DNA from: Spirogloea muscicola | Lineage: Eukaryota; Streptophyta; Zygnematophyceae; Spirogloeales; Spirogloeaceae | Assembly: GCA_009602725.1 (NCBI GenBank) | Contig: WELB01000039.1 | Span: forward strand, 386,351 to 450,350 | DNA length: 64,000 nt | Direction of reading: 5' to 3' | Shown here: positions 347-35,138 of the stretch, one piece after another | How positions within the stretch are numbered: the first letter of the stretch is position 1 | Layout of the letters: each line of letters starts with the position of its first letter | The notes under the pieces: model-generated | Seen by the model: the letters and a program-made list of their open reading frames with translations, nothing else | Database searches by the model: none | Told to the model about the DNA's origin: nothing | Translations under genes and position numbers: made by a program

Positions 347-3300
347 GTTTATGTGGGCGCCAAGTGTGTGGCATTCGACTTCTCTTGGGAGGCCGCGCAG
401 GGTGTGCTCATGGGCTCCGCAGTGCTCTGGATCAACCTAGAGAGTGTGCTGGTGAGCCGCGTTGTGGACGACGCTGGTATTCTGGGCCGCGCATGCGCCC
501 TGGCTGCAAAGAAGGCTGAAGAGTCCTCACGAACCAGGCCTAGCGATGGTGCCCCGCTTGACGTTGTAGTGGGAGCCAACGGCCCTGTGCGAGCCAGGTA
601 AGAATGTTCGAAGGCCTGACAATGTATACCTTGGACTGAGGATGTCATTGCTGGAATCTTGATTAGTTGCTTCCCTTGATGCTGATGTACTGAAATGTTA
701 GCTCGTATCTCAAATTCTGGGAGTGCACAAGCCGGCTTAGCATCTTCTCAATTTGCAAATAAGCACAAGGGGCTGACGACCAAACTCACTTGAATTGCTC
801 GCCCGCTGGTCGCCTGTCTGCATGGGACGCCAACAGCAACACGGACCCTGTCTCTGCGGCAGCACTGCTGAAGGAGGGCCGGCTGCGGGGTGACAAGGGC
901 GTCCGTGTGGAGCGCGATGTGAACCAGCGAAGCTACCTGATGCGCGCCGTCGCGCTCGCGCGCCAGGAGCTTTTTGTCATCTCCATTGGCTTCATGTGTC
1001 TCGGTGTGACCTCCACATCTGGCCTCATCCTCCCCCACTACCAGGTGCTCCTCCCTGCGAAGTTATGTATGTGTTTTTAAACTGTTGCATTTATATATGT
1101 ATTCTCTTCGAGTCTGTCAACTCACCTCCCCTTGCCTAAGTGCTACAAATTTTTATCATGTCTGCGCACCAAGGCCTTTCTAAGGCTGGTTCTCTAATGT
1201 GCACCTAATACATGTTGATATTTTGTCCAGTATTCAAATTTTACTGCTGTGACATCAAGAAAGATCCTGCTGCACTGTGCTACTTGTTTCAACTCTCTGT
1301 TGTGTCCCTTCTATGTTGTCATGTGGATGTACTCTGAAGCCAGAGCTGCACATGCATTGTTGCAGGGCAGGATCCTAGACCAGGTGATCAAGCACAACCC
1401 ACGCGAATTCGACGCGATGTCCTACTCATGGTGGTCTTCAGCCTGGTGACCGGCATATTCGGGGGCATCCGCGGCCTTTGCTTCAGCGTTGTTGGCAAGC
1501 GTGTGCTCAAGACACTGCAGGACCGCCTCTTCCAGGGGGTCATCATCCAGGATGTTGCTTACTTTGACGCCACAACATCGGGCGAGGTCAGCAATCTGCG
1601 CTGCCCAAGCTCCTATTTGATGATGTTCTTTTTTCTTCTTTGATTGTTGCTTACTCGCTCTTGGAGTCTCACACGCTGACTTTTTGTATGGTCCTGGTCC
1701 ACTATTATGACTGACTACCTTGTCGTCTTGGCGGCCATGTTGGCAGCTGACCAGTCGGCTGACCAATGACGTGTCGTCCATGGCGGAGCCGCTCAACTGG
1801 ATGCTGTCCACCCTGCTGCGCAACGTGCTGGGCCTGACAGGCGGCTTCGTCATGTGCTTTTGGACGAGCTGGAAGCTCAGCATGCTTGCTTTCACCACGA
1901 TGGCGCCCATCATGCACATCACCGCCGTCTACTCCCGCTGGTCGCGCGAGCTCAACCGCAAGCGTTATGCAGTAAGTGAGGCGGTTGCAGCTGGCAGCGG
2001 AATATGTTCTTTTACTGTGTCGTGTTATGTTATATTTTTTTGAGTTTTTGTATTATGTAGCTCTAGTTTGCTATTCTTCTTCCTACTCTGAGTCTTGTTG
2101 ACTCTGTGACTAGTCCCCTGTTGCTTTCCACACAGTAGTAAGGTCTCGAGGGGACTGTTTGTTGCTCTCACTCCAGGTTCTTGCGGAGGCCAACTCAGCA
2201 GCTTCTGAGGCGCTGGGCAATATACGCACAGTGAGGGCTTTCTCCACTGAGGACACTGAGGTCGAGCGTTTTCAGAGCAAGACATATGGGGCCATGCAGA
2301 AGGGCGTCCGGGATGCCTTTGCCTACTCAGGGGCAGTGGCCATCAACAACTGGCTAGACCTCGGCGCATCTGTGCTCATCCTCTGGTATGTCTGGTCGGA
2401 GCATCTCCTTCCCCCCTCTTTGTGAAGTCTGTTGATGCAGAAGAGCAGCAATAGACCCTTTCCTCCTGGTTGAGGCATGCACATGGGCCTTAGACTCCCT
2501 GAGCTTCTGTTGGCCAGAGATAATCTATGGCTTGATATTGGAGATATTATTTTAGTATGAGAACGCATTGAAGGTTTTGGCTGCCTGAAGTCTACAACAT
2601 TGTTGCTCGTGCAGGTATGGCGGCGTGTTGGTGATGGATGGGAAGCTATCGGTCGGGAAGCTGATCACCTTCCAGCTCTACTGGAACCTCATCCAGTCGG
2701 GCTACCAGAGCATCATGTCAGTCCTCATGTCGCTCACGCGTGCGGCGGGGGCGGCCCAGCGCGTGCTCTCGCTGATTGACGCTCTGCCTGATATCGACCC
2801 CAACTCGGGCACAAAGGTCAGGCGCCAGCATTGAGCGGCAGCCTCTGCTTTCTGCCTGCACCCGCTGTTATTGCATGCATGCATGGCAGTATGCTCTGTA
2901 AAGGAAGCAGCTCAGGCTTGTGACTTTGAGCCTGCGTGAGTGGCAGCTCTCTAGCGTGGAAGGCGAGCTCAAGTTGGAGGACCTGCACTTCCACTACCAG
3001 ATGCGGCCGCAGCATCCGGTGCTGCAGGGCGTCAGCCTGACCATTCCTAAGGGCAGCGTGTGCGCCCTCGTCGGGCGGTCAGGCGGCGGCAAGTCCACAC
3101 TTGTGCACCTTCTCATGCGCTTCTACGACCCCGTCAAGGGCTCCATCTTGCTGGATGGCTGGGACTTGCGGAGCCTCAACCTGAAGACAGTCCATCAGCA
3201 CATGGGGCTGGTGGCGCAGGACACGCAGATGTGGGCCTCCTCCATTGAGGAGAATATCACATATGGCCTTCCTTCGTACACTCAAGAGGAGCTCGAGAAT

Positions 3301-4419
3301 GCCGCCAGGTCCATCAGTTGCCAGGAGTCACATAGTCTTCTATTGCTGCAAGCGCTATCAATAATCACTATCAGAGCTACCACTGATCACAGTCAACAGT
3401 TTTGGTTTGCAACAATTGTGTGTGACAAATCTGCATGCCTTGACCTTGAACACCGTTCATCTTACAGTGGCTGATGTATCGAGTGTATCTTGCTTTGTCA
3501 TGTCATTAGGAGTGCAAATGCACATGACTTCATCATGAGATTTCCTGAGGGCTATGCAACCCGAGTTGGCGAGCGGGGCGTTCGCCTATCTGGCGGTCAG
3601 CGACAGGTCAATATCTTTGCACCTCATGACCTGATCACTCTTTCACCTGATCATGTGCCCCTCCTGCATGTACCCATTATAAATGCCACCTACTTCACCT
3701 CGTCGCTGTGATTTTTTTGTGGATATGCTGTGGCAAACATTGGCAATCAAAATGTTATCCTCGTTAAATCAGGTTCTGCTGTGAACATGGTGGCATATGT
3801 TGGTTGCAGCGTGTGGCTATCGCAAGAATGTTGCTCCGCAAGCCCAAGATATTGTTGCTTGACGAGGCAACGTCCGCCCTGGACACTGAGAGTGAGGCGC
3901 TGGTCCAGGCAGCCTTGGACCGGCTCATCTCAGAGGGCAACCGCACCGTGGTGCTGGTGGCCCATCGGCTGTCCACAGTCAGAAATGCGGACATGATTGC
4001 GGTCATCGACAAGGGTGCAGTAGTGGAGCAGGGCACACATGACGAGCTTCTCCAGAAAAGTATGTACACACACCCTCATCTCTCCTGATTGTAGAACAGT
4101 AGATGCAGGGTGTAGCTCAATCCTGGCATACTCAGTGCCCTGAAAGTATCAGTTAAACAGATGTCTTATATCTTGGTAATGACCGCTGCTCAAATTCCTG
4201 TCGTGTCTCTCCTTTGCTTAGTGAAGAGTTTTCTGGTGTAGTCTGTCTGTCCAAGTCACTAGTGTTTATTGCCTCTGCACATTGTATATTGCAGAGGATG
4301 GAGTGTACGAGAAGCTAGTCAGGCGACAGTTGCAAAGGACGGCCAACACATTAGACGAGACAGGAGTGGACACTTCAGACGTTATAAGTTCCCTCTTAGA
4401 TGAGCCTCGAAAGAGATGA
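347..4419 (+). CDS. ABCB-type ABC half transporter, multi-exon
   Basis: Predicted membrane exporter with one transmembrane domain and one ATPase domain. Exons I can place approximately: 347-597, about 790-1043, 1366-1588, 1747-1972, 2176-2383, 2615-2815, about 2929-3307, 3513-3606, 3810-4059 and 4294-4419. The ATPase half is complete: Walker [10 protein letters not shown] (near 3075), Q-loop VAQDTQMW (near 3215), signature VRLSGGQRQ (near 3585), Walker [13 protein letters not shown] (near 3855) and H-loop AHRLS (near 3960). The C-terminus ends LLDEPRKR at a TGA at 4417-4419. The membrane half lies in the 5' exons (for example [20 protein letters not shown] at 1438). The reading frame shifts by one base near 1423-1427 inside an otherwise continuous exon, and the splice phase into the 790 exon does not fit cleanly; both suggest single-base sequence errors or a damaged allele. 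The start codon is not identified. Family resemblance is to TAP/ABCB half transporters; substrate and membrane are unknown. Confidence 0.85.
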
Positions 4420-5645: not shown

Positions 5646-8198
5646 TCAGCGTTTCCAAACAGCCACGGAACCATCCACCGATGATGAGAGCAGGCAGCAC
5701 TCCTTGGGGTGATAGGACACACCTGTCACCTGCAACCAGTGACTCCTGATGTTTGAGAAGCTTCCTGCTGCAACTATGGCATCACAGACTTGCACAACCT
5801 CAGCCCTCCTACCCGCTGTGCATGCACAACATTGCTCTACTGAACTCCCAGGTGTGAGACACAAGACGAGCACGACTTTTGCATTATCCTGCAATCGTGC
5901 AAGATCCAGCAGCATCTCAGGCTTGAATCCTGGCATACCGCTGCTGTATGGCCTTTGATTGAAGTCATCCTGGCGTCCACAAGGTCCCAGAAGCAGATCC
6001 GTCCATCCTCAGATCCACTGATGACATGCGCGTCCGTGTTGCTCAGGCAGCTGTCGAGCTTGTATGACTGCACAGAGCAAGCCTCCCTGCTCAATAGATG
6101 GTCAGGCTACTCATCAGCTACAGAGCACAAGAATCACAGGAACCCAAGAGCACCTGAAGCCCAGGTAATCTACAATGAGGCTTAACAAGGATCAGCAATT
6201 GTATTGTGTCGTCAGTGCAGCAGAGCATGGCCTGCACACTCTGATGACAATAAAGTGAATGCCATCACTTCCTTGCGCAACGACCTGTCCACAAGTGGCT
6301 CGCACATGCCTCGGCAGCCCTTTATTACAGCTGAGCTAGCCATCACCCACCTCATTCACATGTCCTTTGTACTCGTTCAAGAGTTCGCCTGATGCCCTGC
6401 CATGAGGTCAGACACCTGTCAATTGCAAGGCTATACACCACATGTTGTAACCAGCTCTTGGGAGCAGGCTGTAGATACAGCCCAATCACGGTGCTGCAGG
6501 ATATTCGCAGCTGCCCTTGGTCCAGACGCCGCATGCTGTCCCCAGGGGGCCTCACTTGTCGAGTAGCCGCACAGTGCTGTCCAGGTAGCCGGCAAGGACG
6601 CAGTTGCCGTCGTTGGAGAGGCTCACGCTGGTCACTGGCCGGCCCAGATGGTCGGAGACCACCCTACACAGAGCCAGATGGTGAAGCAGGGCAACAGGCT
6701 GAGCCAAACGACGCATCAAGCTGCATCTCCATTCCTACTGTCTCTACTATTACCTAAGATTAAGATGTGGTTGAAGTCCTCAGCTCCAACCAGATAAAGG
6801 ATGTGCTGCGAGGAAAAAGCTGTTGCAAACGTTCTGGGTTGCCTTTGCAAGCTATCCAGCTACTTGTAAGAGAGAAATGCATCTAAGAGGCCCATGCTTC
6901 ACCATTACCGGCCCATGCGGATGTCAAGTGACCGGACGGAGCCGTCAATGCTGCCGGCAACAATCTCCGACTTGGTCAGCGCCACCGACGATACACTGTC
7001 GCTGAACGGGTCGATCACCTGCTCTGCTCGTACAGAGCTCGCATGTCAGGTGCACGCGAACAGACTCTCCCACGTGTCAATCACAGCACTTTGCCAGCTG
7101 CTTGCAAGACATTCATTGTCGGTTTTTCAGCATTGCAGGCTGGCAAAATTTGCACAGAGACGAAGCGCTGAGGACTTATTGACATGGGCTTCAGTGCACT
7201 TATGTAGTCAGCAGTCAACATTACTACATGCATGTCCGTTCTGAAACTGCATCTCACAGGGGCGGCGCAGGAAGCAGCTGTGGCAGCAGGGGAGTGCGGA
7301 CCTGGATGGGGTCGATGCTGCGCGAGCGGCAGTCCCAAGCCCTGACGCTGCGGTCGTAGCCGCCGGTGACGACCACCGCGGACGTGTCGCTGAACTTGAC
7401 GGCATTGACCTGCGGCAGGCCAGTGCCAGCTGCAATAGATCAGCCTCGCCGTTGGAGCGCTACAGGCTGAACTTGAACTCGGGCGGCCCGACAACGGCCC
7501 CTGAGCCTGAATTACCGGACCCCCTCATTTCGAAAGCCTGGGCCGGGACCCATATGTAGGCAAGCCTGACGAAATGGCCGCGCTGTGGTGCTAATGGTCA
7601 CGCCTTGGTGCCAGGGCGCTCTAAATCTAACGCTATTTCTGAACCCCAGCTCGGACTAAGTGGGAACGTGGCAGGCAGCGGCCCCCCAACACCTTCCCAC
7701 AGCAGGGCGCTTGCGAGCTCCCAGTGCTTCCAGATGAATAACCCCACACACTCTAGCGAGCAGCGAGAGCGACGTGGGGATCCTGACCTCGCCGTCGTGG
7801 CCGCGGAACTTGCGCACCACGCGCGTGGTCGCGACGTCCCACAGGAACACCTGCCGGTCGCCGCCGCACGACGCCAGGCTGCCGTTGTCCCTGCAGCCGC
7901 AGTCGATGGATTCAAGGGTTTGGGGTTTAGGCCTGTGCTGCATTCAGCGCCCCAGAAGCTCCGCCACGGAATGCTTCGCCGCGGCGGGCAGGGGGGCGGC
8001 GGCGGCAGAAGCGCATACCCGGCGGCGGCGACGTCGCGGACGTCGCGGCCGTGGCCGAGGAAGGCGGCGACGGCGGCGCCGCGGTGCGGGTTCCACAGGC
8101 GCACGGCGCGGTCGCGGCCGCCGGTGAGGCAGTTNGAGATAGCCGCAATGGGCGGAGGCTGCAAAGTTGATTGGCACCTGGCCCTTGGCGACCGCCAT
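5646..8198 (-). CDS. WDR83: WD40-repeat scaffold protein, WDR83/MORG1 family
   Basis: Seven-bladed WD40 propeller protein. In animals the family scaffolds MAPK signalling and associates with the spliceosome. Eight exons with GT-AG ends fit: 8198-8019, 7890-7788, 7409-7302, 7018-6909, 6663-6556, 6396-6351, 6067-5939 and 5729-5646, giving about 289 residues against roughly 315 for the human protein. Blades seen in order: NCLTGGRDRAVRLWNP, SLASCGGDRQVFLWDV, VVVTGGYDRSVRAWDC, IVAGSIDGSVRSLDIR, CVLAGYLDSTVRLLDK, HVISGSEDGRICFWDL and LLSSSVDGSVAVWK. The insertion GELLNEYKGH and the blade order match MORG1 rather than a generic WD40 protein. An ambiguous base at 8135 coincides with a one-base frame change between HCGYL and NCLTGG, so a base is probably missing from the assembly. 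The start at 8198 (MAVAKGQV) is the first in-frame ATG and is tentative. Intron 1 holds a short TTTAGG-like tract at 7916-7931. It is divergent from the patatin-like gene. Confidence 0.9.
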
Positions 8199-8340
8199 GG
8201 ACCACCCGCAAAGTGCCGCCGCCGGCGCCGGCGCCGGGCTGAGGGGTCTCCCACGTGCCCTGACCTCTTCAGCAGCGCCGGACAGCCAACACAGGTTCAC
8301 CTAAGTGTAGGCAAATTTCGAAGCGGCGACGAAACGTGCA

Positions 8341-10074
8341 ATGGCACTCGAGGCGCCGCCGCCTCCGCCGCCGCCGCCACCGCCGCCGCCTCCGCCGCCG
8401 CGCGGCCGCTGCTGAGCTTCCCAGGCGGGTGGGCGCCAGAGCTTCCCGCGCAGCCGCGCCAGCCATGGCCCCACGACGGCGGGCGAGCCTTGGCGCTCAC
8501 CACGCGGCGCGAGCTGCGGGGCGCTGCAGGGGCATGTTCTTCTACTGGCAGCTGGGCGCGGCGGCGGGCCTGGCGCAGCGCTACGACCTGGGCGCTGTGG
8601 ACATGGCCGGCGCCAGCGCCGGCGCGCTCGCCGCCACGCTCGCCGCCTGCCGCGTCGACGGCGCCGCCGCCGCCGAGGCCGCGTTCCAGCTCTCGCTCGA
8701 CCACAAGGTCTGGGACAACCCCGCCGGTACGCAGCGCCCAAGGCCGCGTGCGCCGGCTCCCAGAGGACCTGCCACTGCCGCCGCCGCCTTCCGCCGCTGC
8801 CCATGGCTGCCGCTACTACTCGCTGGTCACAGCAGCTCGCTCTGGCCGCCATGCACGCAGGCCTTGGAGGCGTCTGGGGCGGCCTGATACGCCTCTGGCT
8901 GCAAGGCCTGCTGCCCGCCGACGCCGCCGAGCGCTGCTGGGGCCGCCTGCACCTCTATGTTGTCCACCTCCCCAGCATCCAGCACCGGCATGCACGCCTG
9001 CCCGGCCGCACTGCCCTTGCCCCGCTGATATAAGTTACCGCCAGCTTTGCGCGCCCAGCTGATAAGCGATGCACCTCGAATGCTCAATACCACAACTTCC
9101 ATGTCGTCGTCAGGTGTTGGGTTCTGAGGTGCATCCGGGGACACGGTTCTTGAGCCAGACGTTTGATAGCTGTCCACCTCGGCCTGGCCTGTTGCACGCG
9201 CACGCAGGAGCGCTGGCTTTGCAAGGCAGTCATTCACCGACTTCGCCAGCCGCGACGACCTCATTGACTGTTGCCTGGCATCCGTGCACATACCCTGGTT
9301 CATGGACGGCCACCCGTGGGCGCACTTCCGCGGTCGGCGCTCTCTTGATGGCTCACTTTTCGCATCAAGGTTGCTTAATGTCTTCTGGACTCCACCCTCA
9401 ATGTATCCGGATCCTCGCGCCATGCTTCAGTCAGTTGTTAGACAGCTCGCAGTGGCTTGTGCTGAAACAAGTCATTATTCGTGTGACACGAAGCACCACA
9501 GGCTGAGTACAAGTAGTCAGTCACCTAGCTATGTGGTACACTAGCGTGACAGCCAATCAAGCTGCCCCTGTGTTGGTCTTGGCATCACTGACTTCACGAA
9601 TTTTGGGTTGCACTGTTGCTGCTTCCACAGGCAGGATCTAGCTTTGGGTGGCAGCCGGCCAACGGTCTGGCTTGATTACACTGACGATCCGGTATGGCCC
9701 CTTGCTGGTCATCTATCTTGTCCTTCAGTGGCTGGAGTTGCCTCCTGTCTGTTGCTTGTGAGATGAAAGATGCCGCAGAGAATGTCTCCTTATCCTGCGG
9801 TGATCGAGTACAGTGCTATGATATCATGTCTTTGCGTCGTTGCCTGAGAAAGCAGACCAATGCATGCAGGCCATGAAGAAGGACCGCCTCCAGTTCCTCA
9901 GCCTTGGTGCCAAGGGTGAGGGCCCCAGCCGCACGTGGCAGTGGATCGAGGACATGATGGCCGCTGGCGAGCTTTTTGTCTCAAGGGCCCACCAAGATGG
10001 CTCGCTTGCTCCGCTCCATTCTGCAGCCCTTAATGGCAGACATCATGGAGCAGAGCAACGAATCTGACTTATGA
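8341..10074 (+). CDS. Patatin-like phospholipase (PNPLA family)
   Basis: Predicted lipid acyl hydrolase. The nucleophile elbow is seen as GASAGAL (near 8610), fitting GXSXG with the active Ser. The oxyanion segment is assembled by splicing 8428 to 8530, where LLSFPGG joins GMFFYWQLGAA. Further exons: 8530-8726 (ends HKVWDNPAG), about 8860-8965 (GLIRLWLQGLLPADAAERCW), about 9230-9369 (DFASRDDLIDCCLASVHIPW, then RGRRSLDGS, a DG that can serve as the catalytic Asp) and about 9865-10074 (KKDRLQFLSLGAKGEG). A further small exon is likely near 9632-9690 (VWLDYTDDP). The start is doubtful: the ATG at 8341 runs into a CCG repeat in a different frame from LLSFPGG, so the repeat length may be wrong in the assembly. 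The last codons could end at 10067 or 10074 depending on frame. It shares a roughly 140 bp divergent upstream region with WDR83. Confidence 0.75.
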
Positions 10075-10433: not shown

Positions 10434-13400
10434 TCAATACAGGATATCCTTGAAGAGGCTGGACCGGTCGTCGGACATGGCGTTTATGAGAATTGGGTCC
10501 GTGGCAATCGCTCTCAGCCGCGTGCTCGACAGCAGGTTGCTCATGAGCGTGAGCAGGCTTGCGTAGCGTGCCTGCTTCCGCTTCAGCACCCTGTAGAAGG
10601 CCCGGCAGCCCAGAACTTCCATATGTGTATCCGAGACAGCACCCTGCCCTGCAGCCACGGCTGCCAGCCGCAGCCTGTTCTGAACAAGGGCGTGCATGTA
10701 CCTGGCTCATGAGCAGACGTGCCATGTACTGGCTGTTACTTAGGCAATCTATGCGTTGGTCACTAAGCACAGGTCTTGAGGTGCTTATTGGACAAGATGA
10801 GGAGTGCCCAGCTTGCAGCTGAGTCGAAACATCTTGCTCTGCAGGCAAACGATTGAGCTTCGGAAGAGACCCGCAGCTGGATACTGGCTCATCAAGTCAA
10901 GGTCCAAGTCTCCTTCTCACCTTATTGCCTGCAATATAGCATTGAAGAAAAAGTTTGGGTTCTTGGCCACGCCGACGTTCATCGAGTGCATGTAGGCGTG
11001 GAACTTCATGGCGCACAGGAGGAAGGCCTGATAAATATTGAGCCGCACTGTGGCGGGCGAGTTGATGGCTGGGTCATAGAAGAGAGGGTGGCACTTGGGC
11101 CGCAGGTACAGCCGCAGCTTTGCAGCCATGGCCAGGCCCTGGAATCTGCCGCATGCCACGTTAATAGAGGAGCTGATGTGGTCGCCGCAGTACCTGTTCA
11201 CAAAATAGCTAGTGCTTGTCAAGTACAACCAGCAGAATCATAGCATGGAGCATCTGAAGTAGGAAGTCTTCATTTGCGAGGGCCTCGCATATTCGCCAAG
11301 CTCCATGAGGGCAGCAACACAGATGCATTTCCCCAATGTTGTCTCAGTTGTGCACCTTGTGTAGTCAGCCTGAACCTCCAGCGAAGCGCAGTTGATCAGC
11401 AGACCACTCCATGGAATGAAGCGCTCCCCTGTTCCATCAACGTACTCTTTGGTGGCAATTGGCTTGGCCCCCAGAGACAGCGGGAAACTGACACGGGTCT
11501 TGCCTTGATTAGCTCGACAGCCGTAGTCCTCAAACCCCCTGTGCATCAATTCCACATAGGAGGCAGCTTTGGCCGCTGAAGTCGACACAAAGAGCGAGTC
11601 ATCAATCAGCCGCAGGAGCAGAAATGCTGAGCTTCTGCTTGAAGCTGACGCCTGATCGCAGCTTGGCTGCTTGGCAGAGGGAGGAATTGTACATCCAGCG
11701 AGCAAGATCAGGGGGTCTTCATGACCGATGCCGGCAGCTTCTGGATAGCCCGCCTGCTCTTTCATGGTCGCTGAAGGCAATTCCTCCATCTCAGAACTTA
11801 AAGTACCAGCAGTGCCTCCCTCATGCACGAGCTGCGGGAGCAGCATGTGCCGCTCAAGGTGGCCATAGAAGAGGGAACACAGGAAGGGCGACAGAATGGA
11901 GCCCTGCGGGATGCCGACCTGTTGGCGGAAGAAGCTCTTGCCAAGCATGACCACATTCTCCGTCACGTGCTGGTGGTGGAGCTGGAGGACATGGCGCCTC
12001 GTCAGCATCCGAGAGGACCCCTGTCGACCACACACAACAATTGTTGAGAGTCTGCTTGGTGTGCCCTCTTTCTCACAAGTAGGGTCAGAATCATTGGATA
12101 GGGGAGATGGTATTTGTGAAGCCAACCTGGTCTATGAGAATGCTGCACTTCTGCCTGAAGAGCTCCACGTTTGGCTGGTCCAGCTTGGTTGTCACGGCAC
12201 GCTTGTAGAAGGTCATGATAGACTTTTTCGTTGCTTGCAACTTTGTGTACCTCTGAACACAGTACTGGTCATTCTCTAAGAAGCTCTGCAAGATAGAGTC
12301 AAACCATGAAGACATCATCTTCTAGGCACAAGCTGTCCTCTTTCACATATATGAGTCACGTGAGCTCGTCTTACATGGAAGCATACTGAGGCAAGTGGTT
12401 GTGTCAATATTCCATCATGCCAGGTGCTGGACGAGCTTTGAGTGCACTTGAAAGTGGATGAACTCAACTCCAAGGTACTGCAAGCTTACCTCCACAACCT
12501 GGCAGAGCTTCTTTTGACTGACAGAGTCAAAGGCTTTTGCCACGTCACAAACAGCTAGGTAGAGCATAGGCAGTTCCCCTGCGGCCTTCTTGAGTGACAC
12601 GATGAAAGCCTTTAGCCGCTTGTGAATGTCATCGTATCCAAAGACTGAATAACCCAGACCCTCTTGTTGCTGCTTAGCCTCTTGCTGGAAGCATCCATGG
12701 ACATCCTTCAAGCACGAATTGATTGCCTTGAAAGCCACCACAACTGATTGTTCTCGTTTCCTAGTTTGGGCTGAGCTTGACTTCGACTTTCGCCCAGCAT
12801 GCTCCTTGAAATTGCTGGGAGATGGCAAGAGTGAGACATGTTGCTGTTCACTGAGAGAATCCAAACAAATGCCAGTACTGGCAAGAGGGAGGGCGCTTCC
12901 AATCTCGTCAACACTAGCTGTGATGGGTGAGCTTGCTCGGAAGGTTGATGTACTCTTCTGAGCTGCTACCTTTGTCTTTTGAGCACCCCTTTTGAATATG
13001 CTGGCAAGGGACCTTCTTCTGATGTGGAATGTAGCCTGAGTCTTTGCGCTGAGATTGGCAAGAGGTCGAACTCCATTGATTCTGGGTAACAGCCTCACTC
13101 TAGCAAAGCCAAGCCTCCGCTGCTGCAAGGATGAATATGCCATCAGCTTCCCCGATCAACATCAGCCTCTTGCGAGCCCATATACTTAGTCTAGCTGCAA
13201 GTCTGCCGTGGTCAGGACAGCATCATATGGGGTAAGAACAATGAAGGTGTAGAGCAATGTAACCAGCTCGTTCTTTTGCTAAAGATATCCTCAAGCTCTC
13301 TTAAGGTCATTGTCACAGGCCTCTGGTATCTGCTCCCTACGTTTGACCTCACGATTTCCCTTGCCGTAATCCAGTCAAACCTTCCTACAAAAACAGGCGA

Positions 13401-16400
13401 CTCTTTTGACGATACCTGCAAAATGCATCTTGCACGAGCTGGTGTCAGCCTCTCGTAAATGCTTGCGCCAAGGTCCTGGTGGGCGGTAGCACAGATCCTC
13501 GCCCAGACTGGCTTGCGGTAGTAGAAGACCAACTGCCTGTGAGTTTCGCTCTCTGTGACATAAAAGTGGCTCCTGATCAGAGGGATCACCAGCAAGTTGA
13601 ACACCCAGAAAATCCAGTCCTGTAAAAGCTTCTGCCGCTGAATGCTGACACCTGCTGGTACCTTCTGCGGCTGTTCTTTCTTGGCCATCCGCGTCTTCAG
13701 TTGACTCCCCTGCCAGCTCTGTCTTCCATCGAGAACGTCAGTACTGCCAGAGTTAGCTGCCATCAGCTCTGGGCAAGTACACCTGCAGTCCGAGTTGGTC
13801 CCAACCGGCGACGGAAGCACCAAACGAGGATCATGCTCTTCCCATCTCTTGATACGGATGGTGTTGTTTATCATAGCAAGGCCACGATTTGGTTGGTCAC
13901 GCTCTTTACAAAGCCAGGCATAACCAGTGATTCTCAGCTTGTACAGAACCTGCTGCAGAGTGAGCTCTTCTTTCCTCCTCAGCCTCACAAATCGATGCAC
14001 TGTCTTTCGGAGCTGTTGCTGATTGGCCTGATTTCCCAGTAAAGTGCAAGGGATGATGCTCCGAAGGACAGACCAGACAAAGCTGGCAACCTCTGTGTGG
14101 CTGGAGTAGAGAGATACAAGCTCCTGATAATTCACATTTGGCCACTTTGACGAGGCCTTGGACAGTCCCTCAGCAGGCCTCTGATCTGCTACTTGGACAC
14201 TATTTCCCAGCATATCTGAGGCCTCCAGGGTGCTGCCTTGCTCTTGCTCTTTGCCCATGCTACTGTCATCCTCTTGAGTAGCATAACCAGCTTCCATGTC
14301 CTGCACAGAAACTGAGATAGCAAGCTTCAGGACATATTTTCCTGCACAAAGGAAGTGGCAGACTGCGAAAAGGGGACACCATGGCAGAGATTCTGACTGT
14401 TTGGCATGCAGGTGGTGAAAATAACAACAATTCCAGCAAGAGGCTTGCTCTGTTGAGAAGGGCTCACTGCTGCTGAAGGGACGGGCATCTGTGCTGCAGG
14501 TGTCAGGTGCGCAGTTGAGCTGTCGCGAGGTAGGGGGCAGTGCCTGTTGAGGAGACGGGCAAAGTTGCAAGACTTGGCCCTCTTCAATAACAAGCCAAGC
14601 TGACAGATTAACTCAGCAGCCTTCGTCATCCTCCTTCTGAGGACGTGCATGTGGGCACAGTAGCAGGTGAGTAAACTGCCACTTAACGTGCAATATCTTA
14701 TCTAATCATACAGTTGCAGCAAGAAGCAATCAACCCATGCAAACATTTGGGCATTTTCTGCGAGAGTGGCATGGTCTGCAATAGCCACATGTGAGCTGAT
14801 AGAGGCCGAGAAGCGAAGCAAACTCCCTACTTGCAACCTGGATGATCTTGCAACATGTGTCGCAAAGATTGACTCAAACAGCTGCTTAGCTCCCTTGTCA
14901 TTGGGACCACAGGTGTTGAGCACGTCTGTGATGGATTGTCAAGAATCTGCTGCCTCATGATGAGAGGATAGAAAGGCGACGGCCACAAGAAGCACTTCTA
15001 GTCTCACATGCTTCAGACAAGCTAGCTAGTGGGAGAGGACACATTGCAGCAAATGTCCAGCCTTCCTCTATCAGACAGCAGTTTACACGCATGGGACTGA
15101 AGGAGGACCAAGAAGGATGTGATCAGTTTACACTGGAGCTAAGTGTGTATGATAGCAGCAGGAGGGCGTCTAGTCAGGCGGCTAAGAACTTCGGACAAAA
15201 AGAGAGCGCATATTGGATACGGTCTGTAGGGAAACCGGCGTGCTTGGTGAAATTGCTGCAATAGAAAATTCGAGATCGTAAGATCATCCTTGCTGTCGGA
15301 CTAAGAGGATGTCTTAGACTTCTCTTGTCATCGGTCTGCTTAATGTCATCACACAGAGCTGCCATTGGCTGCCCAAAGGAGTTGCTGATGGGCTGCTGCA
15401 TGTCTGCCACGACGCAGTTCCTTGTGGTAGCTCTGAACGTGTCAGTCATCTCCCTCTTCACCTTGATAGCCCTGCTCCTTTGCCAGCTTGGAAGCCTTGA
15501 CCGTCTCCTGACCTTGGTCTTCTCAGTCTGTCGCCGAGTACCACTGCATTGATGCTCTACATCACTGGCTTCCACCTTAATAGGGTCACAAGCCTGTGAA
15601 AAGGCAGGCACCTGTCCAGGGTCCGTCTGGACTGCATCATCTGTAACAGTGGCCAGCTCCTGTCCACCTTGTAAAAGGCTGCCAGGTTCACAAAGTCTAG
15701 CATGCCCACATGCATTAGATGACTGTTGACACACCTGCACTTTCAGCTCTCTGATCATGTGCACCTCAATCAGATCACACTCAGCTTTCCTTTTGACGCC
15801 ATCCTGTGAGGAGTTTTGTGTCAAAGGCAGCCCATCATCTTCAGAAGAATCTGATACGCTAGTCATGCCACAATCTTGTGTGGGGCTTGTACGGCTGTGA
15901 TCAAGCAGCTCCGGCTGACTAAGAGGAGAATCGGGACTGGTCAATGACTTGGTCGGCTTGGAGGACCTGCCGATGGACCCTGAGTCATCAACATCTGTGC
16001 AGTCCTCCATATCCACTTTGGAGATGGAAATCAGCTCTGCATCCAAGCTGACCAACAAGGGTGGAGAACAGCCAGTTGGCAGATTCCTAGCTTGTTCTCT
16101 GTCCACCGCAAGGCCAAGTACCGCAGACCCCTTCTCCTCTACTGCAGAGGTGTCAATGGAGCTCCTGCTTGCCGATTGCTTGTTTTTATCTGTTTGATGC
16201 CGCCGAACCCTCCTCCGCCGCCTCCAGGCGCTGCTTGTAAGCAACTTAGTGGCTTCTCTGTTACCTCCTTGTTCTGCAGAATGGGTAGCTGGGGCAGACA
16301 ATTGTGTCCCTGGAGTTGACTGCTTGCTAAAAGCTCGGGCGAGTGCGTCAATCTGCTGCCCTGAGACTTGGAGAAAGCTTTCATCTTGTAGAGGAACAAA

Positions 16401-17546
16401 TATTGAGGCATGGTTCAGTAAGTAAAGCATCATCTTGTCCCCCACCTGCAGGCAAAAGGCAAGAGTAAGCACATACACTGACATGAATGTTTTGTAGGAT
16501 CCTTAAGCAGAGGTAGAGACAATTCCAGCTTGCCAGTGAGGGCAGGCTGTGGAAGTAGTACCCCATTGTCCCATGAGCAACAGAAACAACGCCAAGTTCA
16601 CAAGCAGTGCTGATCCTACTTCATGCATAGAGTGTCTGGCAGGTGGAAATTGTGAACTTAAAATGAAGAGGCACCTGAGTGTGCAGCAATCGCCATGGTG
16701 GTGACAGAAGCTTGTCCATTGCAAGATTCCTTGGCGTGCTCAGCACGTCCTCAGAATGTGACCTTTTTGTCAAGTCTCTGCTGGCCATGAAAGGAGGCTG
16801 CACCATGTGACGGCTGGCACTGTCACTTAAAGGCAACAAGGATGCCAGTTCAGATGGAAAGCCGGCAGTGAGTAGCCAAAGGCAGGTCACAGTGGTCAGG
16901 GAGGAGCCACAGATCAGCTACGCAAAGCTCACATCAACTTTGTCCAATGCTGGCACTCTCATCGCCTGACAAGCGGCGCGCTGGGCGCACCTGCTGGACC
17001 CCACTGCAGAGCACGTGGCGCGAGCCGCCGGGCGGGCCCGCCAGGAGCTGCTGGACCTGCATTTCCACGACTCGCCCAACAATCTGCAGGGCTGAAATAT
17101 GGTCAGTTACAGGGGCTCTCACTGTAAGCTAGTCCTTAGCGCGACGCTCTGAGACAGACAACCTCATCATAGTCGCTTGGATTGATCATTGACTCGGTTT
17201 GCATCTGGAGGCTCCAGCAATGCAGGTTGCGTCGCGCCTGGCGATGATCAGGAGACAGACGCGACAGACTCTGGCGCAGCATCGCGCGCGGTGCCGTCTG
17301 CACCTCGGCCAGCGTCCAGTCGGGCGCCGCGATGGGGCCGCCGGGCGCCGGCGGGGCGCCCGGCGCCAGCGCGGCGTAGCTGCTGCGCAGCATGTCCATG
17401 CAGCTGGCGCCGTCGCTGCCGGCGCCGATGGCAGGAGGCAGCTCCGCGGGGAGCAGCGAGAGCAGCAGGTCGTGCAGCGTGAGAAGGTTGGGGTAGAGGC
17501 GGGCCAGCGCCGCGGGCGGCCGCCGCGCGGCGCCGCCGCCGCCGCC
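10434..17546 (-). CDS. TERT: Telomerase reverse transcriptase, multi-exon, 5' end missing
   Basis: Catalytic protein subunit of telomerase. Read on the minus strand, TERT landmarks appear in order. N-terminal start of the TEN domain: LYPNLLTLHDLLLSLLP (near 17500); then QIVGRVVEMQVQQLL (17090), SWNCLYLCLR (16520) and GDKMMLYLLNHASIFVPL (16440). A long unconserved linker follows (16350-15300), then FYCSNFTKHAGFP (15260) and FARLLNRHCPLP (14560). Telomerase RNA-binding domain: KTVHRFVRLRRKEELTLQQV (13980) and motif T FYVTESETHRQLVFYYRK (13560). Reverse transcriptase motifs: 1/2 RLLPRINGVRPLANLS (13105); A with catalytic Asp VCDVAKAFDSV (12545); B' QQVGIPQGSILSPFLCSLFY (11930); C LLRLIDDSLFVS (11615); E FIPWSGLLINCASLEVQ (11425). 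C-terminal extension: LRPKCHPLFYDPAINS (11100) and NPNFFFNAI (10960), ending FKDILY at a stop at 10434. All three catalytic Asp residues are present. The 5' end stops at the N run 17547-17553, probably only a few residues short of the Met. It is transcribed away from CMC4. Confidence 0.95.
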
Positions 17547-17553
17547 NNNNNNN
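17547..17553. other. Assembly gap (7 N)
   Basis: Run of N inside a GCC repeat. On its left is TERT exon 1 (minus strand); on its right is retroelement coding sequence on the plus strand. The true TERT start codon is likely hidden here or misjoined. Confidence 0.95.
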
Positions 17554-19859: not shown

Positions 19860-22161
19860 TTAGGTTGACACAGTGGTGCCAAGAGCATCCATGATGAGGG
19901 CCAGAAATTCTGGGTGAGCTGGCCATGCTGCACCAGTAATCAGATTACCATCCTTGAAGCACTTGGTAATGGGTTCTGGCTCAAGCCACTCTGCTCCAGC
20001 TAGGACAATCGCGGGCTTGACTGCAGGGTAGGCAGTCAACCGTTTCCCCTGCAATGTTTGCCATTGTGGTGCCCTCAGATTAGCAGTTCATGTCTCGAGC
20101 AGCGCAGACTTTTGCGGTGATTACACCTCTGCATTTCATTTGTAAAGGGAGCCCATCTTCAGTCATGGTGCTCTGCTGCTTACAATAGAATGCTCACCTG
20201 AAGGACTCCAGCTGCTGACAAAATAAGTGGTCCATGGCAGATGGATGCTATTACTTTCTTCTCTTTGTCAAAATGCCGAACAAGGTCTAGAACCTTGTCA
20301 TTGATAGATAGGTACTCTGGAGCTCGGCCACCTGGAATTAGCAGCACATCATAGTCTTCAACCTTCACGTCATCAAAATTGAAGTTGAGTTGAAATCTGT
20401 GCCCAGGCTTCTCTGAGTAAGTTTGGGCTCCCTCAAAGTCATGGATGGCAGTCATGCAAAAGTCGTCTTTGCTTTTTCCAGGACAGACGGTATCCACGCG
20501 GTAGTCCAAGCTTTGCATTGCCTGATAAGGCACCATCACCTCGTAGTCTTCTACATAGTCCTGTCAATGCAGAGATACAGTGATCAAGCACAGCATATAC
20601 ACTTCGACAGCACTTGATCAGGCAGAACAGGGCAAGTGGATATAATAAGACATGAACTATGAGCTCAAAGTAGTACATAGGGAGGAACTTGATTGTGCAT
20701 AGTCACTCTGGCAAGATATTCACCCCAGCTAATAGGAGCACCCTCTTGTCGCTTCCTTGCACTCTTGCCCCCATAGCCATCAAGAGCAACCCAATAAATT
20801 CAGGATGCCCCAGCCAGCCCGCGCCTGTGACAAGGCATTCGTCCATGAAGCAGGCAGATATAGGGTCGGGCTCTTCCCAAACTGCTCCTGCAGCAACCAG
20901 AGCTGGCTTGCAAGCAGGATATGCTGTACACTTCTTGCCCTGCACAATCACCACACCATCAATATCAGCTGCATAATAGGGTACGAACAAGTGGTAATCA
21001 AGTCTCTGTCCTGTGAAGTCAAGTCAAGTCAAGTCATGATCAAGTCACTCAAAGCACTGAGTAATGTAAGAATTACAAGTATACTGTAAGCAGGTCGTCA
21101 AATTGAGTAGGCAGTCACATTGCTAGCCACCTTCTGTCAGTTGCAGCAGCCCTCGTCAACAAAAGGTACCACTAACCTTGAGCACACCAGCTGCAGCAAG
21201 TATGAGCGGCCCATGACAGATCGCAGCTATTGGCTTCAGAGCTGCACTGAAGCCCTGGACCAACTTGATCACAGACTCATCAACCGAGAGATACTCTGGA
21301 GCACGGCCTCCAGGAATCACAAGTGCATCGTATTCGTCCCATGAAACCTCGCTGAAAGTTGCATTGAGCACAAAATTGTGGCCTGGCTTCTCGCTGTAAG
21401 TCTGCTTGTGGAAGGCATCAAACCAGGGGCAGAGGACAGACTTCAGCAGATACACCTAGCTAAGCACAGCAACTGTGCAGCTTGCTCCAGCTTGTTGTCA
21501 TACATGCATCACAGGGTTGTCAAGTTGCTGGCAGTCCATTCAAACAATGGGAAAACGACCACCACATGCTAGCTTCCTTGCATGACTATTTTTGTCATTC
21601 TTAACAAAATATAACAAAATTCAAAGCAGGAATGAAATCCCAGAGATTATGTGTTTCTGACAAAAGCAATTTGCATCATACTGACAGAAGAACGTAGAAG
21701 TCAATTAGCAGGCTTGTTTTTGCAGGTTTTCATGAAGAGGACCAACAAGCCCACATACTTGATCACCTTCGAAATCGTGGACGGCTGTGCGGCAGATGTC
21801 GCCCTCCTTCTTACCCGGGCACACCGCGTCCGTGCTGAAGCCAAGAGCCTGGAGCGTCTGAAACGGTACCATTACCTGCGAGCCGTGCGAGCAATGCCAT
21901 TGTGGTGAGCTGCCTCAGAGTTGCAGAGCTGCAGACATGGCAGGCCATGGCGACAGCGTGTGTGGCGGGCACATGAGCGTCGCCTGCCAATTAGCGGTGC
22001 GACGAAGCACGCAGCACAGGGGGCCTTGACCCTGGAGCTCTCCTTGCGCTGGCGCCTGCCGTTGGCCACTCCCACAGCATGGCGGTGAAGACCCGGAGAT
22101 GCTCACCTCGTAGTCCTCGGCGTAGTCGCCAACCAGGAACAGGATGCGCCTGCCTGGCACC
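19860..22161 (-). CDS. Tandem-domain DJ-1/PfpI protein (plant DJ1D type)
   Basis: Two DJ-1/PfpI domains in one polypeptide of roughly 385 residues, as in plant DJ1D proteins, which have glyoxalase III-type or protein-repair activity. Domain 1: [19 protein letters not shown] (22161-22105), [20 protein letters not shown] (about 21875), [18 protein letters not shown] (21400), [11 protein letters not shown] (21315), [13 protein letters not shown] with the nucleophile Cys (21220), then [17 protein letters not shown] (20935). Domain 2 follows without a new Met: DKRVLLLAG (20745), [13 protein letters not shown] (20560), [11 protein letters not shown] (20335), [13 protein letters not shown] (20225), [13 protein letters not shown] (20045), and ends LGTTVST at a TAA at 19860-19862. 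The two halves are about equally complete and both keep the Glu of EDYE and the Cys of ICHGP. One intron holds a short AAGTC microsatellite (21016-21037). Convergent with CMC4. Confidence 0.92.
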
Positions 22162-24723: not shown

Positions 24724-25713
24724 CTACTGGGGCTTGGCGACGATGAAACCGCAGCACTGGACCTGCCTGCTCCTGTCGAAGCCAATGACGCGGATGAAGG
24801 CCTTCGGGTACTCCTTCTTGCAGTTGGCGACCTCCTGGAGAACCTGGGTGGAGTCGTTGCAGCCGAACATGGGGAGCTTCCACATGGTCCAGTAGCGGCC
24901 ATCATAGTAGCCAGGGCTCCGGTTGTTGTAGCGAGAGATGGTGCCAACCTGCCAGGCATCAGCACCACAAGCTAGCTTCAGGACGAGCCGAAGCTAGATC
25001 TGATCTTACAGCTCCTTCTGCCAACTAAACTGAAGCAGATCAGAGCAGATCATCGACGGTAAGCAAGGTGCCTGCACTTGTCAGATGCTAGCAACGCACC
25101 TCGTCGAACTCGATGCAGGGGATCCAGCCCTTCAACAGCAGGTAGTCAATCTCCTTGGCAATGGCCTCATCGGACAGGGGGGGGAGGTAGGACAGGGTCT
25201 CGAACTTGGGGTTGTTGTAAGGGGGCCACACCTGGCGACACATCAAAGACAGTACGAGTGATGAGCACGCCGTGCCAGGAGCATCAAGGATCGGCTCTGA
25301 GCAACGTGATGAAAGGCAGGGCAGAGATGAAGCAATGGCATTTGAGGACTGCAGCTTCAGCTCAGGCGGATGTGAGAAGGTGAGTGGCAATGTGACAAAG
25401 CTCAGGCGCATGTGAGAAGGTGAGTGGCAATGTGACAATGCAGGCCGCGGGAAGGTCAGATCTGAGCTCAGAGGCAACGATTAGCCGAGGAGAGGCGGAG
25501 GGGGGGCGCCAGAGGGAGGGCTCTCACGAGGAAGGCGTTGGTCTTGGAGCCGTTGGAGGTGGTCTTCAGGGCCCACTCGTTGGCGGCGCCGGCGTTGCGG
25601 CGGAGGCCGGAGAAGGCGGGGACGACGGAGGTGGAGCGGGAGGCGGGCGCGGCGGCGAGGGCGGGCGCGGCGGCGGCGACGGCCAAGGCGGAGGTGGCGG
25701 CGAGGGCGGCCAT
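24724..25713 (-). CDS. rbcS: Ribulose bisphosphate carboxylase small subunit precursor
   Basis: Small subunit of form I Rubisco, nuclear-encoded and plastid-targeted. Three exons fit perfectly: 25713-25528, 25231-25100 and 24948-24724 (186, 132 and 225 bases, all in phase 0), giving 180 residues. Exon 1 encodes an Ala/Ser/Arg-rich transit peptide ([20 protein letters not shown]...) with a [18 protein letters not shown] end. Exon 2 begins the mature part: [20 protein letters not shown] ... [10 protein letters not shown]. Exon 3: [45 protein letters not shown], ending VAKPQ. The segment between IEFDE and YYDGRYW is short, so the long betaA-betaB loop of Chlamydomonas is absent. Intron 1 holds a 39 bp tandem duplication (25363-25440). 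The start is the first ATG in a GCC-rich context. Confidence 0.97.
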
Positions 25714-27531: not shown

Positions 27532-27991
27532 CAGTCATACCTCGTTATAGGCACGTCGGCCGGTGTGGCGAAAATGTGTGACTATATCGAGGTGTGCTTG
27601 TTCGTTGTAGAGGCACTATTGCCCCCGAATGTGCTTATACCGTGACAATCAGCAATATATCGAATTATATTGAAAAATGGCTTTTGGGGTTTAGGTTTAG
27701 GGTTAGGGTTTAAAAACTAGACCCTAACCCTAGACCTAAACCCAAAGCCCCACACCCTAAACCCTAAAGCTCAACCCTGTAGAGAATATGAGAGATATGT
27801 TCATTTGTTTTCTTATAGGCACTTCTAGTGGGGAATCTGCCCCGAAAAACTGTGCCTGTACATAACGGCACGTTCCCTTATCGAGTCACTTTTGCCAGGG
27901 GAAAAAAGTGCTTCCCGCAAAAAGGTGCCACTATCGAGGGGTTGCCCGAAATGTGCCCTTATCCGTGGGTGCCTATAACGAGGTATGACTG
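27532..27991. mobile_element. pogo/Tigger-like MITE, 460 bp
   Basis: Non-autonomous DNA transposon. Terminal inverted repeats of 23 bp match exactly: left CAGTCATACCTCGTTATAGG (from 27532) and its reverse complement ending at 27991. The element is flanked by TA on both sides (27530-27531 and 27992-27993), the target duplication used by Tc1/mariner/pogo elements, and the TIR resembles the CAGNCATACCTCG ends of Tigger elements. No transposase frame is present, so it would need a transposase in trans. The exact TIRs suggest a fairly recent insertion. The interior holds telomere-like repeats (separate entry). Confidence 0.9.
27684..27768. repeat. Telomere-like repeats as an inverted pair
   Basis: TTTGGGGTTTAGGTTTAGGG on the left faces ACCCTAACCCTAGACCTAAA on the right, followed by ACACCCTAAACCCTAAAGC. 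The two arms can form a hairpin around TTTAAAAACTAG. The units are degenerate TTTAGGG, the plant-type telomere repeat. The whole tract is inside the MITE. Confidence 0.85.
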
Positions 27992-30314: not shown

Positions 30315-30420
30315 GGCCGCCTGAACGGCGCGGAGGAGAGCACAGCGGCAGTGGGGACGAGCGACGATCTGGTGCCTGTGACTGTGACACGGGGGACGAG
30401 GAGATGGCCCTGGGCCAGGA

Positions 30421-30960
30421 AAAAAGATCGTGTATTAGAAAGAAATGTAGGCCAAATGGCCAGGTACAAAGGCAAGCACATCTAAAAATCTACATAACCT
30501 ACAGCAGATTGACCCGCTCAATAACCACGGGTCAAAACATAAAGGTCACTACTCGATGCATGAATACTAGATGCCAGGAACGGAGCCCTTCTGCCACCTA
30601 CTAGAGCTCGCCCAGCTTTCTGGTGCAAGGCACTAGCCTGAGCACGCTGCAAACAGGCCGAAACTCGACGTCGCAAGAGCGACAGATATGCAGCTGGCAA
30701 GCCCATCTCAGCCGGAAACACCTGCGCGTCGAGTGTAGCCTAGATTGGCAATGTTTTGAAGCAGAGTGTGGAAACGAGGACCCAGACAGCCAAAGATGTC
30801 GATTGCAGCTGGCAGGAGTTGATCGCATTGGGGGTAATCGGAGTAATGCCGCAGTTTTCTTTGCTCTGCTCCGCCCACTGCGTGCCCAGCAATGTGTGTT
30901 GATGCTGGGCCTTTATATGCCTCCGTAACAACAACGCCGACCAGGGAGGGATGCACCAAT
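30421..30960 (-). mobile_element. LINE-like 3' end copy C
   Basis: Minus strand from 30960: VVVTEAYKGPASTHIAGHAV, KLRHYSDYPQCDQLLPAAID, FGCLGPRFHTLLQNIANLGY, then GLPAAYLSLLRRRVSACLQR, ALHQKAGRALVGGRR, SSDLYVLTRGY and a stop in the hairpin 30509-30535, then a 3' tail to about 30421. The V.V..AY.G...AE..K...Y block followed by FG.LG resembles the C-terminal endonuclease-like part of some non-LTR ORFs. Carries at least one disruption. Confidence 0.55.
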
Positions 30961-31209: not shown

Positions 31210-31740
31210 GGCTGCCTTTTCGTTGTGGTAACGGAGGCGTACAAGGGACCAGCATCCACACACATCGCTGGTCATGCAGTGGGCGTTGCAGAACAAAGAA
31301 AGCTGCAGCATTACTCCGACTACCCTCAATGCGATCAGCTCCTGCCAGCAGCAATCGACGTCTTTGGTTGTCTGGGTCCTCGTTTCCACACCCTCCTCCA
31401 AAACATTGCCAATCTAGGCTACACACGTCGTGCAGATAGTGTTTCCGGTTGAGTTGGGCTTGCCAGCTGCATATCTGTCTTTCTTGCGACGACGTGTTTC
31501 GGCCTGTTTGCAGCGTGCTCAGGCTAATGACTTGCACCAGAAAGCTGGCCGAGCTCTAGTTGGTGGCAGAAGGGCTTCGTATCTGACATCTAGTATTCAG
31601 GCATCAATTAGCGACCTTTATGTTTTGACCCGTGGTTACTGAGCGGGTCACTTTGCTGTAGATCATGTAGGTCTTTAGATGTGCTTGCCTTTGTACTTGG
31701 CCTTTGGCCTTCGTTTGTTTCAAAAACACGAAATTTTCCT
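31210..31740 (+). mobile_element. LINE-like 3' end copy D, inverted relative to copy C
   Basis: Plus-strand copy of the same segment as copy C: VVVTEAYKGPASTHIAGHAV, FGCLGPRFHTLLQNIANLGY, ELGLPAAYLSFLRRRVSACL, SISDLYVLTRGY, stop in the hairpin at 31626-31650, 3' tail ending near CAAAAACACGAAA at 31735. Together C and D form an inverted repeat with arms of about 500 bp and a spacer of about 250 bp. Confidence 0.55.
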
Positions 31741-32578
31741 TTTCTCGGCCCTCGCCCCTTTCGAATGAGCTTACTAGGGTTTATTTGAGCTTATTTCTTG
31801 CAGCGGCTCAGGCTTTCCACCAGAGAGCTGGGCGAGCTCTAGCTAGGGTCTCCTTTGTCTTCGGGCAGCATTTTACAGCCCTCACCCTCTTTTCGATGAG
31901 CTTACTTCACTTGCTGGTGGCTGAAATGAAATTGCTCGCCCAGAGAAGAGGGGCTGGCAAAGCCAGCCAAAACGAATGGACAAAATCCAGAGAGCCAAAA
32001 AGGGTGCCGAAACGAAAAGCTACACAGCTAGACTCGAGACGCTGAAGGGCTTGGTAATTGCCGTCCAGTATTTGGATATCGACTAGCGATCCCCTTGCTG
32101 ACTCATTATTGAGCGAGTCTGCTAAGCAGCTTGTGATATAGATAGATGTACTTGGCGCTGTGCTTGCCACTCAGGCCCTCCATTACTCAATACTCGTCTT
32201 GCACCAGTAAGCAGGCTTTACGTGCCCATTGACAAGAGCCCCGTTCGGAAGAATCTTTCCATTTGGCAGAGCTTGCTTGTCCACTTGCTAAAATTTGGCT
32301 TTTGAGCGGGTCGGCAAAGCAGCAGGCGGCGTTGTTCGTCTACGTGCTTGCCTTGGTACTTGGCTGCTCTGGCCCTAGTCACTCACCACTCAACAGGTCG
32401 GCTTGACCTCTTGCACGGGATGCGCAGTGTTTCGACGCACCACAAGGAGCAGGCAGAGTCCATCCGCAGTGGGCTCCAGGCCCTGGTGTACCGAATGCTG
32501 CTCTCATTTCCCCACAACTTACACTAACACATGCGTTGTTCAGCATCTTCGTTCTGATCATGCCCTGGCTGCCGCCTC
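31741..32578. repeat. Degraded LINE-like ends and hairpin repeats
   Basis: A GGGCTGG-type repeat lies at about 31945-31990 (minus). A diverged stop-codon hairpin reads GACTC...GAGTC at about 32099-32119. Another related segment runs near 32280-32380. No intact frame. Confidence 0.5.
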
Positions 32579-35097: not shown

Positions 35098-35138
35098 TAA
35101 ACCCTATACCCTAAACCCTACACCCCTAAACCCTTTAA
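35098..35138 (+). repeat. Interstitial telomere-like tract
   Basis: Degenerate CCCTAAA units (TAAACCCTATACCCTAAACC, then CTACACCCCTAAACCCTTTA). About five to six units, too degenerate to be a chromosome end. Confidence 0.85.

Follow-up and report, generated by a model that had tools for sequence, protein, structure and literature searches.

What gene lies on the minus strand between positions 17546 and 10434 of the window, by which we mean the whole 64,000-nucleotide stretch of Spirogloea muscicola DNA analyzed here (part of contig WELB01000039.1, referred to as contig 39), and why does the assembly hold homologous loci elsewhere? Telomerase is the enzyme that rebuilds chromosome ends, and an earlier note had proposed that this region encodes its catalytic reverse transcriptase subunit (TERT), with a TEN domain, motifs QFP, T, 1, 2, A, B', C, and E and a C-terminal extension (CTE) in order and with every catalytic Asp. 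All of these elements were found, on the minus strand. We conclude that the locus is very probably the TERT protein gene of a green alga with TTTAGGG telomeres and one of three homologous copies in a genome that is represented about three times. The gene is in itself ordinary, and its membership in a set of three homologous TERT loci goes beyond what the window sequence alone could show; the three diverged copies in the assembly are the feature of wider interest.

Identity and structure of the TERT gene

Members of the TERT family share a TEN domain, an RNA-binding domain (TRBD) with QFP and T motifs, a reverse transcriptase (RT) domain with motifs 1, 2, A, B', C, D, and E, and a CTE. We assigned the window gene from profile matches to open reading frames (ORFs), from motifs, and from a spliced model. 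When Pfam profiles were compared with stop-to-stop ORFs, splicing not being assumed, Telomerase_RBD (PF12009) matched ORF 13212–14609 at 4.5e-35, passing its cut-off, TERT_C matched ORF 10917–11237 at 4e-16, RVT_1 matched ORF 11238–12128 at 1.7e-07, and TEN_TERT matched ORF 15174–16499 at 4.6e-04 (20.9 bits, under the cut-off of 25). The first spliced model scored 116.8 bits for Telomerase_RBD (117–121 across models), 79.6 for TERT_C, 38.6 for RVT_1, and 26.9 for TEN. The TERT_C match (PF21399) spans profile positions 3-127 of 130, indicating that the CTE is present, and with the revised exon 3 described below, the N-terminal 200 residues reached 29.7 bits for TEN (PF11474). The profile comparison that the earlier note had proposed, TERT against a retroelement RT, thus favored TERT: Telomerase_RBD and TERT_C both outscored RVT_1, and all 17 distinct PDB sequences matched at an E value of ≤0.01 are TERT (best, 7qxa at 1.1e-68, with the model containing the first exon 3 as the query). 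The best solved relative is human TERT (PDB 7qxa and others), which aligned over the TRBD, RT, and CTE regions, with 104 bits for the CTE part, 67 for the RT part, and 44 for the T region; the alignment is weak in the exon 5–6 stretch (3.1 bits) and the TEN stretch (5.2 bits).

The spliced model, built on GT–AG introns, comprises 12 exons and resolves 1,607 residues (4,824 bases including the stop codon). Its start of exon 3 was revised after comparison of the three copies. The first acceptor (GTAG at 16918) was rejected, as it introduces a stop into the contig 42 copy; the acceptor at 16797 was adopted because it is conserved in all three copies and free of that stop. The features of the gene, from its 5' end, are as follows.

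17547..17553, no strand: seven-N assembly gap, with the start codon within or beyond it
17304..17546, minus strand: exon 1, 5' part of the TEN domain; GT donor kept in three copies, 5' end cut by the N gap
16991..17083, minus strand: exon 2, TEN; spliced model and three-copy comparison
16675..16797, minus strand: exon 3, TEN; revised acceptor CACATGGTGCAG/CC, common to three copies
15221..16445, minus strand: exon 4, TEN end (QVSG), long linker, and RIFYCSNFTKHAGFP; TEN_TERT match on the N-terminal 200 residues
14838..14925, minus strand: exon 5 (HVLN..GAKQLFESIF); splice sites in three copies, weak human TERT alignment
14468..14636, minus strand: exon 6 (LLLKRAKSCNFARLLNRHCPL, CP-like); splice sites in three copies, weak human TERT alignment
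13416..14300, minus strand: exon 7, QFP and T motif, RNA-binding domain; Telomerase_RBD match on its ORF
12490..13122, minus strand: exon 8, motifs 1 and 2, ~90-amino-acid (aa) insert, SVFGYDDI, and motif A; human TERT alignment and three-copy comparison
12127..12285, minus strand: exon 9, which we take to be the insertion in the fingers domain; aligned to human TERT
11356..12020, minus strand: exon 10, B' (GIPQGS), ~70-aa insert, and motifs C, D, and E; RVT_1 match on its ORF
10921..11193, minus strand: exon 11, CTE; TERT_C match on its ORF
10434..10701, minus strand: exon 12, CTE end, SLFKDILY, and stop; spliced model

The motifs, under the names that we assume from the TERT literature, stand in the expected order (QFP, T, 1, 2, A, B', C, D, E, and CTE).

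14096–13911, minus strand: QFP
13622–13494, minus strand: T motif
13098–13042, minus strand: motifs 1 and 2
12564–12520, minus strand: motif A, DVAKAFDS, with the catalytic Asp codon at 12546-12544
11918–11853, minus strand: motif B'
11621–11583, minus strand: motif C, LIDDSLFVS, with Asp codons at 11603-11601 and 11600-11598
11546–11484, minus strand: motif D
11417–11361, minus strand: motif E
10463–10437, minus strand: CTE end

Motifs A and C read as they had been reported, and all three catalytic Asp residues are present (one in motif A and two in motif C). Human motif A, in contrast, is DVTGAYDT. Between motifs A and B', the residues of the fingers-domain insertion align with human TERT. 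The gene shares the TEN, TRBD, RT motif, and CTE layout of plant and green-algal TERT. It may differ from that layout in two inserts, ~90 aa separating motif 2 from motif A and ~70 aa separating B' from C, and in the ~350-aa linker that joins TEN to TRBD; all these boundaries were set by us. By the mechanism established for the family, the TRBD would hold telomerase RNA, the RT domain with its Asp residues in motifs A and C would copy the RNA template onto the chromosome 3' end, and the TEN domain and CTE would anchor DNA. To judge from its sequence, the window gene is presumably expressed and its product presumably active as a telomerase.

The gene had also been called complete. The stop codon is present, but the start codon falls inside the seven-N gap or past it, so the claim was overstated. 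Exon 1 is broken in the other copies too, by a single N inside the exon in contig 42 and by 459 Ns in contig 8, and because of these gaps, the start codon could not be placed in any copy. Past the window gap, the frame enters MDLCSETAKRMRYTCAS, an apparent dispersed repeat with further occurrences near the other copies. In contig 8, a run of ~120 A residues follows directly after the 459 Ns, before TERT exon 1 (L017 837-957), and is most likely an assembly artifact.

The plant-type telomere that the earlier note had named was borne out by TTTAGGG arrays that open contigs 10 and 22 and stand at two scaffold joins. Across the assembly, the 21-base (TTTAGGG)3 occurs 752 times with overlaps counted (439 forward and 313 reverse), compared with 0 for the reversed pattern. 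The places listed include the very start of contig 10 and, in contig 22, bases 22–77, oriented as at a chromosome end. Such telomeres are common to plant and green-algal TERT systems; TTTAGGG telomeres are described as prevailing in Chlorophyta (PMC7046594).

The call of an alga also gained support, from a gene within the window for the small subunit of Rubisco (rbcS).

24724..25713, minus strand: nuclear rbcS, 7 kb upstream of TERT; RuBisCO_small match of 2.3e-24 on the last exon

Nuclear rbcS is a marker of the green lineage, and its presence in the window places the genome in that lineage. The gene has a leader and introns; we took its start, stop, and intron positions directly from the sequence. 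In the PDB, its last exon best matched chloroplastic small subunit 1A (2.2e-34); land-plant entries ranked at the top and Chlamydomonas entries (1gk8 and others) lower, at ~3e-24, the organisms being those that we presume from the entry names. A pattern for the start of 18S rRNA gave 0 matches.

Three copies and their constraint

Genome-wide searches covered an assembly of 153.1 Mb in 471 contigs. Telomerase_RBD was found at three loci, in contig 39 (the window), contig 42 (560.5–561.2 kb), and contig 8 (566.2–566.9 kb), each of which carries both halves of the domain (6 matches; all three first-look candidates were scored). The TERT gene regions of the three copies align end to end, the exon 1 gap excepted. 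In the revised model, all 11 introns are GT–AG in each copy, with no internal stop or frameshift. Motifs DVAKAFDS, IDDSLFVS, GIPQGS, and WSGLLIN are identical in all three, and the proteins are 86–88% identical overall (1360/1552 residues for contigs 39 and 42, 1382/1601 for 39 and 8, and 1325/1548 for 42 and 8). For the same pairs in the same order, synonymous divergence (dS) is 0.133, 0.131, and 0.165.

We compared the ratio of nonsynonymous to synonymous divergence (dN/dS) between parts of the protein, excluding the truncated first codon of contig 42 and all codons containing gaps or N. For A–B', C–E, and CTE taken together, dN/dS is 0.166 (39–42), 0.201 (39–8), and 0.180 (42–8), with bootstrap intervals within 0.10–0.33 and 95% upper limits of 0.27-0.33. 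In each pair of copies, purifying selection acts on the catalytic part. Taken as a whole, the protein has a dN/dS of 0.45–0.52 (upper limits of ≤0.63), and the inserts reach 0.44–1.44 (between motifs 2 and A) and 0.60–0.94 (between B' and C). The three copies thereby set constrained parts (the catalytic core and CTE) against drifting ones (the linker and the two inserts). Since the core is constrained in every pair, each of the three copies probably makes a working TERT.

Green-algal TERT loci have already been treated (PMC7916837), and algal TERT as such is known, as are plant TERT copies that follow ploidy. We found no report of a green alga with multiple intact TERT genes among the listed titles and abstract openings of the open-licence literature. 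Pattern searches of viral and genome contig collections yielded no confirmed TERT relative among 170 and 345 matches. The window therefore adds a well-supported green-algal TERT that comes with natural replicates in the form of three diverged copies.

One nucleus or several algae

Flanking sequence bears on why there are three copies. We compared 30 kb of each contig with the window, dropping matches of <150 bp or above an E value of 1e-20. Largely collinear blocks run from window position 125 to 25.7 kb for contig 42 (82–91% identical) and from 109 to 26.3 kb for contig 8 (80–93%, plus one block at 70%). A further contig 8 match, of 78–87%, covers window 35.5–42.0 kb; it comes from the best 38 of 7,357 candidates, a selection in which contig 42 was possibly missed. 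The copies are about equidistant, at ~10% divergence in DNA. Beyond the TERT region, the MCM helicase domain gave 65 matches, which we grouped into 16 loci belonging to six families with 3, 3, 3, 2, 3, and 2 copies. DNA identity within families is 0.846–0.917 (computed from a single 3-kb locus for each copy; of 30 loci, 16 were kept and the 14 second loci of the same copy dropped), a divergence similar to that of the TERT copies. Largely collinear flanks and an MCM family multiplied alike indicate that TERT was multiplied with its neighbors and with an unrelated family, not alone; the assembly would hold three TERT copies since much of the genome seems to be present in about triplicate. The simplest reading is most likely a triploid or hybrid genome, which by arithmetic would have a haploid size near 51 Mb. 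Triplication would then extend genome-wide, and the three copies would share one nucleus.

We propose, tentatively and with somewhat less than even confidence, that three TERT genes with ~10% diverged DNA, brought in by three merged lineages, reside in one nucleus, are all functional, and serve one or more telomerase RNAs. Such a genome would be suited to studying the cooperation of telomerase protein and telomerase RNA inherited from different parents, a question that has been raised for allopolyploid crops (PMC12133305). In the cases described for polyploid plants, TERT copies follow ploidy, with 3 in Nicotiana tabacum, 2 in Brassica napus, and 3 in Camelina sativa, one of the Camelina copies being a putative pseudogene (PMC7916837). 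Those cases are land plants, whereas here three open copies with dS of 0.13-0.165 occur in a green-algal assembly. Divergent subgenomes likewise occur together in a microalga in the allopolyploid diatom Fistulifera solaris, which is described as having two (PMC5935921); ours is a green alga whose genome is represented about threefold.

Several results weigh against our main reading of the locus and of its three copies. At the N terminus, the TEN match covers only profile positions 91-142 of 156, the C-terminal part of the domain; the N-terminal 200 residues alone gave no TERT match in the PDB by phmmer, and the 5' coding frame of the window gene enters the Ns at 17547–17553 without a start codon. 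Constraint is weak in the linker (dN/dS of 0.68, 0.72, and 0.55 for 39–42, 39–8, and 42–8), in the TRBD region (0.50–0.74), and in TEN (0.45–0.60), and for motifs 1–2 (36 codons; 0.34, 1.06, and 0.33) one pair stands at 1.06. As to triplication, two of the six MCM families show two copies only, and MCM is the only family sampled outside the TERT region, which limits any genome-wide claim.

Telomerase RNA was also missed. One described strategy for finding it joins an snRNA (small nuclear RNA) promoter element to the template (PMC12133305). Six of seven U6 matches have a TTAATCCCA-type element 66-69 nt upstream, and an exact TATA stands at -26 to -31 in five of the seven; the TTAATCCCA element is common to two U4 genes and represents the snRNA promoter of this genome. 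The strict promoter pattern occurred at two places, both U6 genes, and gave no telomerase RNA. The combination of TTAATCCCA and TATA occurred at 13 places, compared with 11 for a reversed-pattern control; the 13 include five U6 and two U4 genes, and none had an 8-base telomere-complement template within 600 nt. A TCCCA, TATA, and CTAAACCC pattern occurred at five places, compared with two for the control, none with the promoter element. Telomerase RNA was thus not found by promoter and template patterns, which would overlook a gene whose template frame, spacing, or promoter differs; the miss is a failure of the search and not evidence of absence.

The strongest competitor is that three related algae, each with a single ordinary TERT, were present in one culture or sample. 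We consider this unlikely, though well short of negligible. The same data would be expected: the copies are about equidistant and ~10% diverged, and MCM genes occur in two to three copies with a similar spread. Organelle sequence would decide the matter, but the assembly yielded no rbcL, so organelle genomes cannot separate a hybrid from a mixed culture. Indirectly against a mixed culture, the closest pair of copies changes along the alignment (χ2 of 167, 64 df, P = 3.6e-11; 33 windows of 500 three-way columns, gapped columns dropped and the probable artifact tract 8172–8640 included), which suggests exchange between lineages; the shifts may reflect exchange or old polymorphism, ancestral variation being possible.

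The tract just named, at window 8172-8640, comprises 469 bp identical in all three copies amid ~10% divergence. Gene conversion was set aside as its explanation, given an N at or near the tract end in every copy, and the identity probably stems from gap filling from the same reads.

Duplication of TERT alone, followed by neofunctionalization of the paralogs, would also give three loci but is very improbable, considering that the flanks are largely collinear over ~25 kb, that the MCM genes are multiplied alike, and that constraint is similar in all three pairs. Penelope-like elements have been described as RT relatives of TERT, and RVT_1 did match (38.6 bits), but a retroelement RT is a negligible prospect, refuted by the TRBD, the CTE, and the intron structure: Telomerase_RBD (116.8 bits) and TERT_C (79.6 bits) exceed RVT_1, TEN is above its cut-off, 11 introns lie at matching places in three copies, the PDB matches are all TERT, and the RNA-binding domain occurs at three loci only in 153 Mb (the RT domain was not searched genome-wide).

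Telomere arrays and neighboring sequence

At contig 27:905700-906600, a forward TTTAGGG array is followed by one N and a long CCCTAAA array. This double array is probably two chromosome ends scaffolded head to head and not a real fusion. Contig 4 has the same kind of join near 875.7 kb, where a telomere array, an N, and other DNA follow one another. Several single interstitial TTTAGGG tracts are also among the genome-wide places listed, and the window itself holds short degenerate interstitial tracts at 27683-27768 and 35097-35137, the first with both orientations.

In the window, a small inversion between copies is seen at 20168–20619 (0.45 kb), where the contig 8 match (93%) is reversed relative to its collinear surroundings. 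Other neighbors of TERT are a DJ-1/PfpI homolog at 19863-21455 (minus strand; best PDB match, DJ-1 homolog D), ABC transporter exons at 2114-4085 (plus strand), and a patatin-like frame at 8264-8884 (plus strand) under the family cut-off. Two repeat arms of ~530 bp, mutually inverted, lie at 30410-30946 and 31221-31746. Among the matches listed, there are at least 37 places with 98-99% identity to the first arm and, for the most part, 87-88% to the second; the repeat looks like a young transposable element family.

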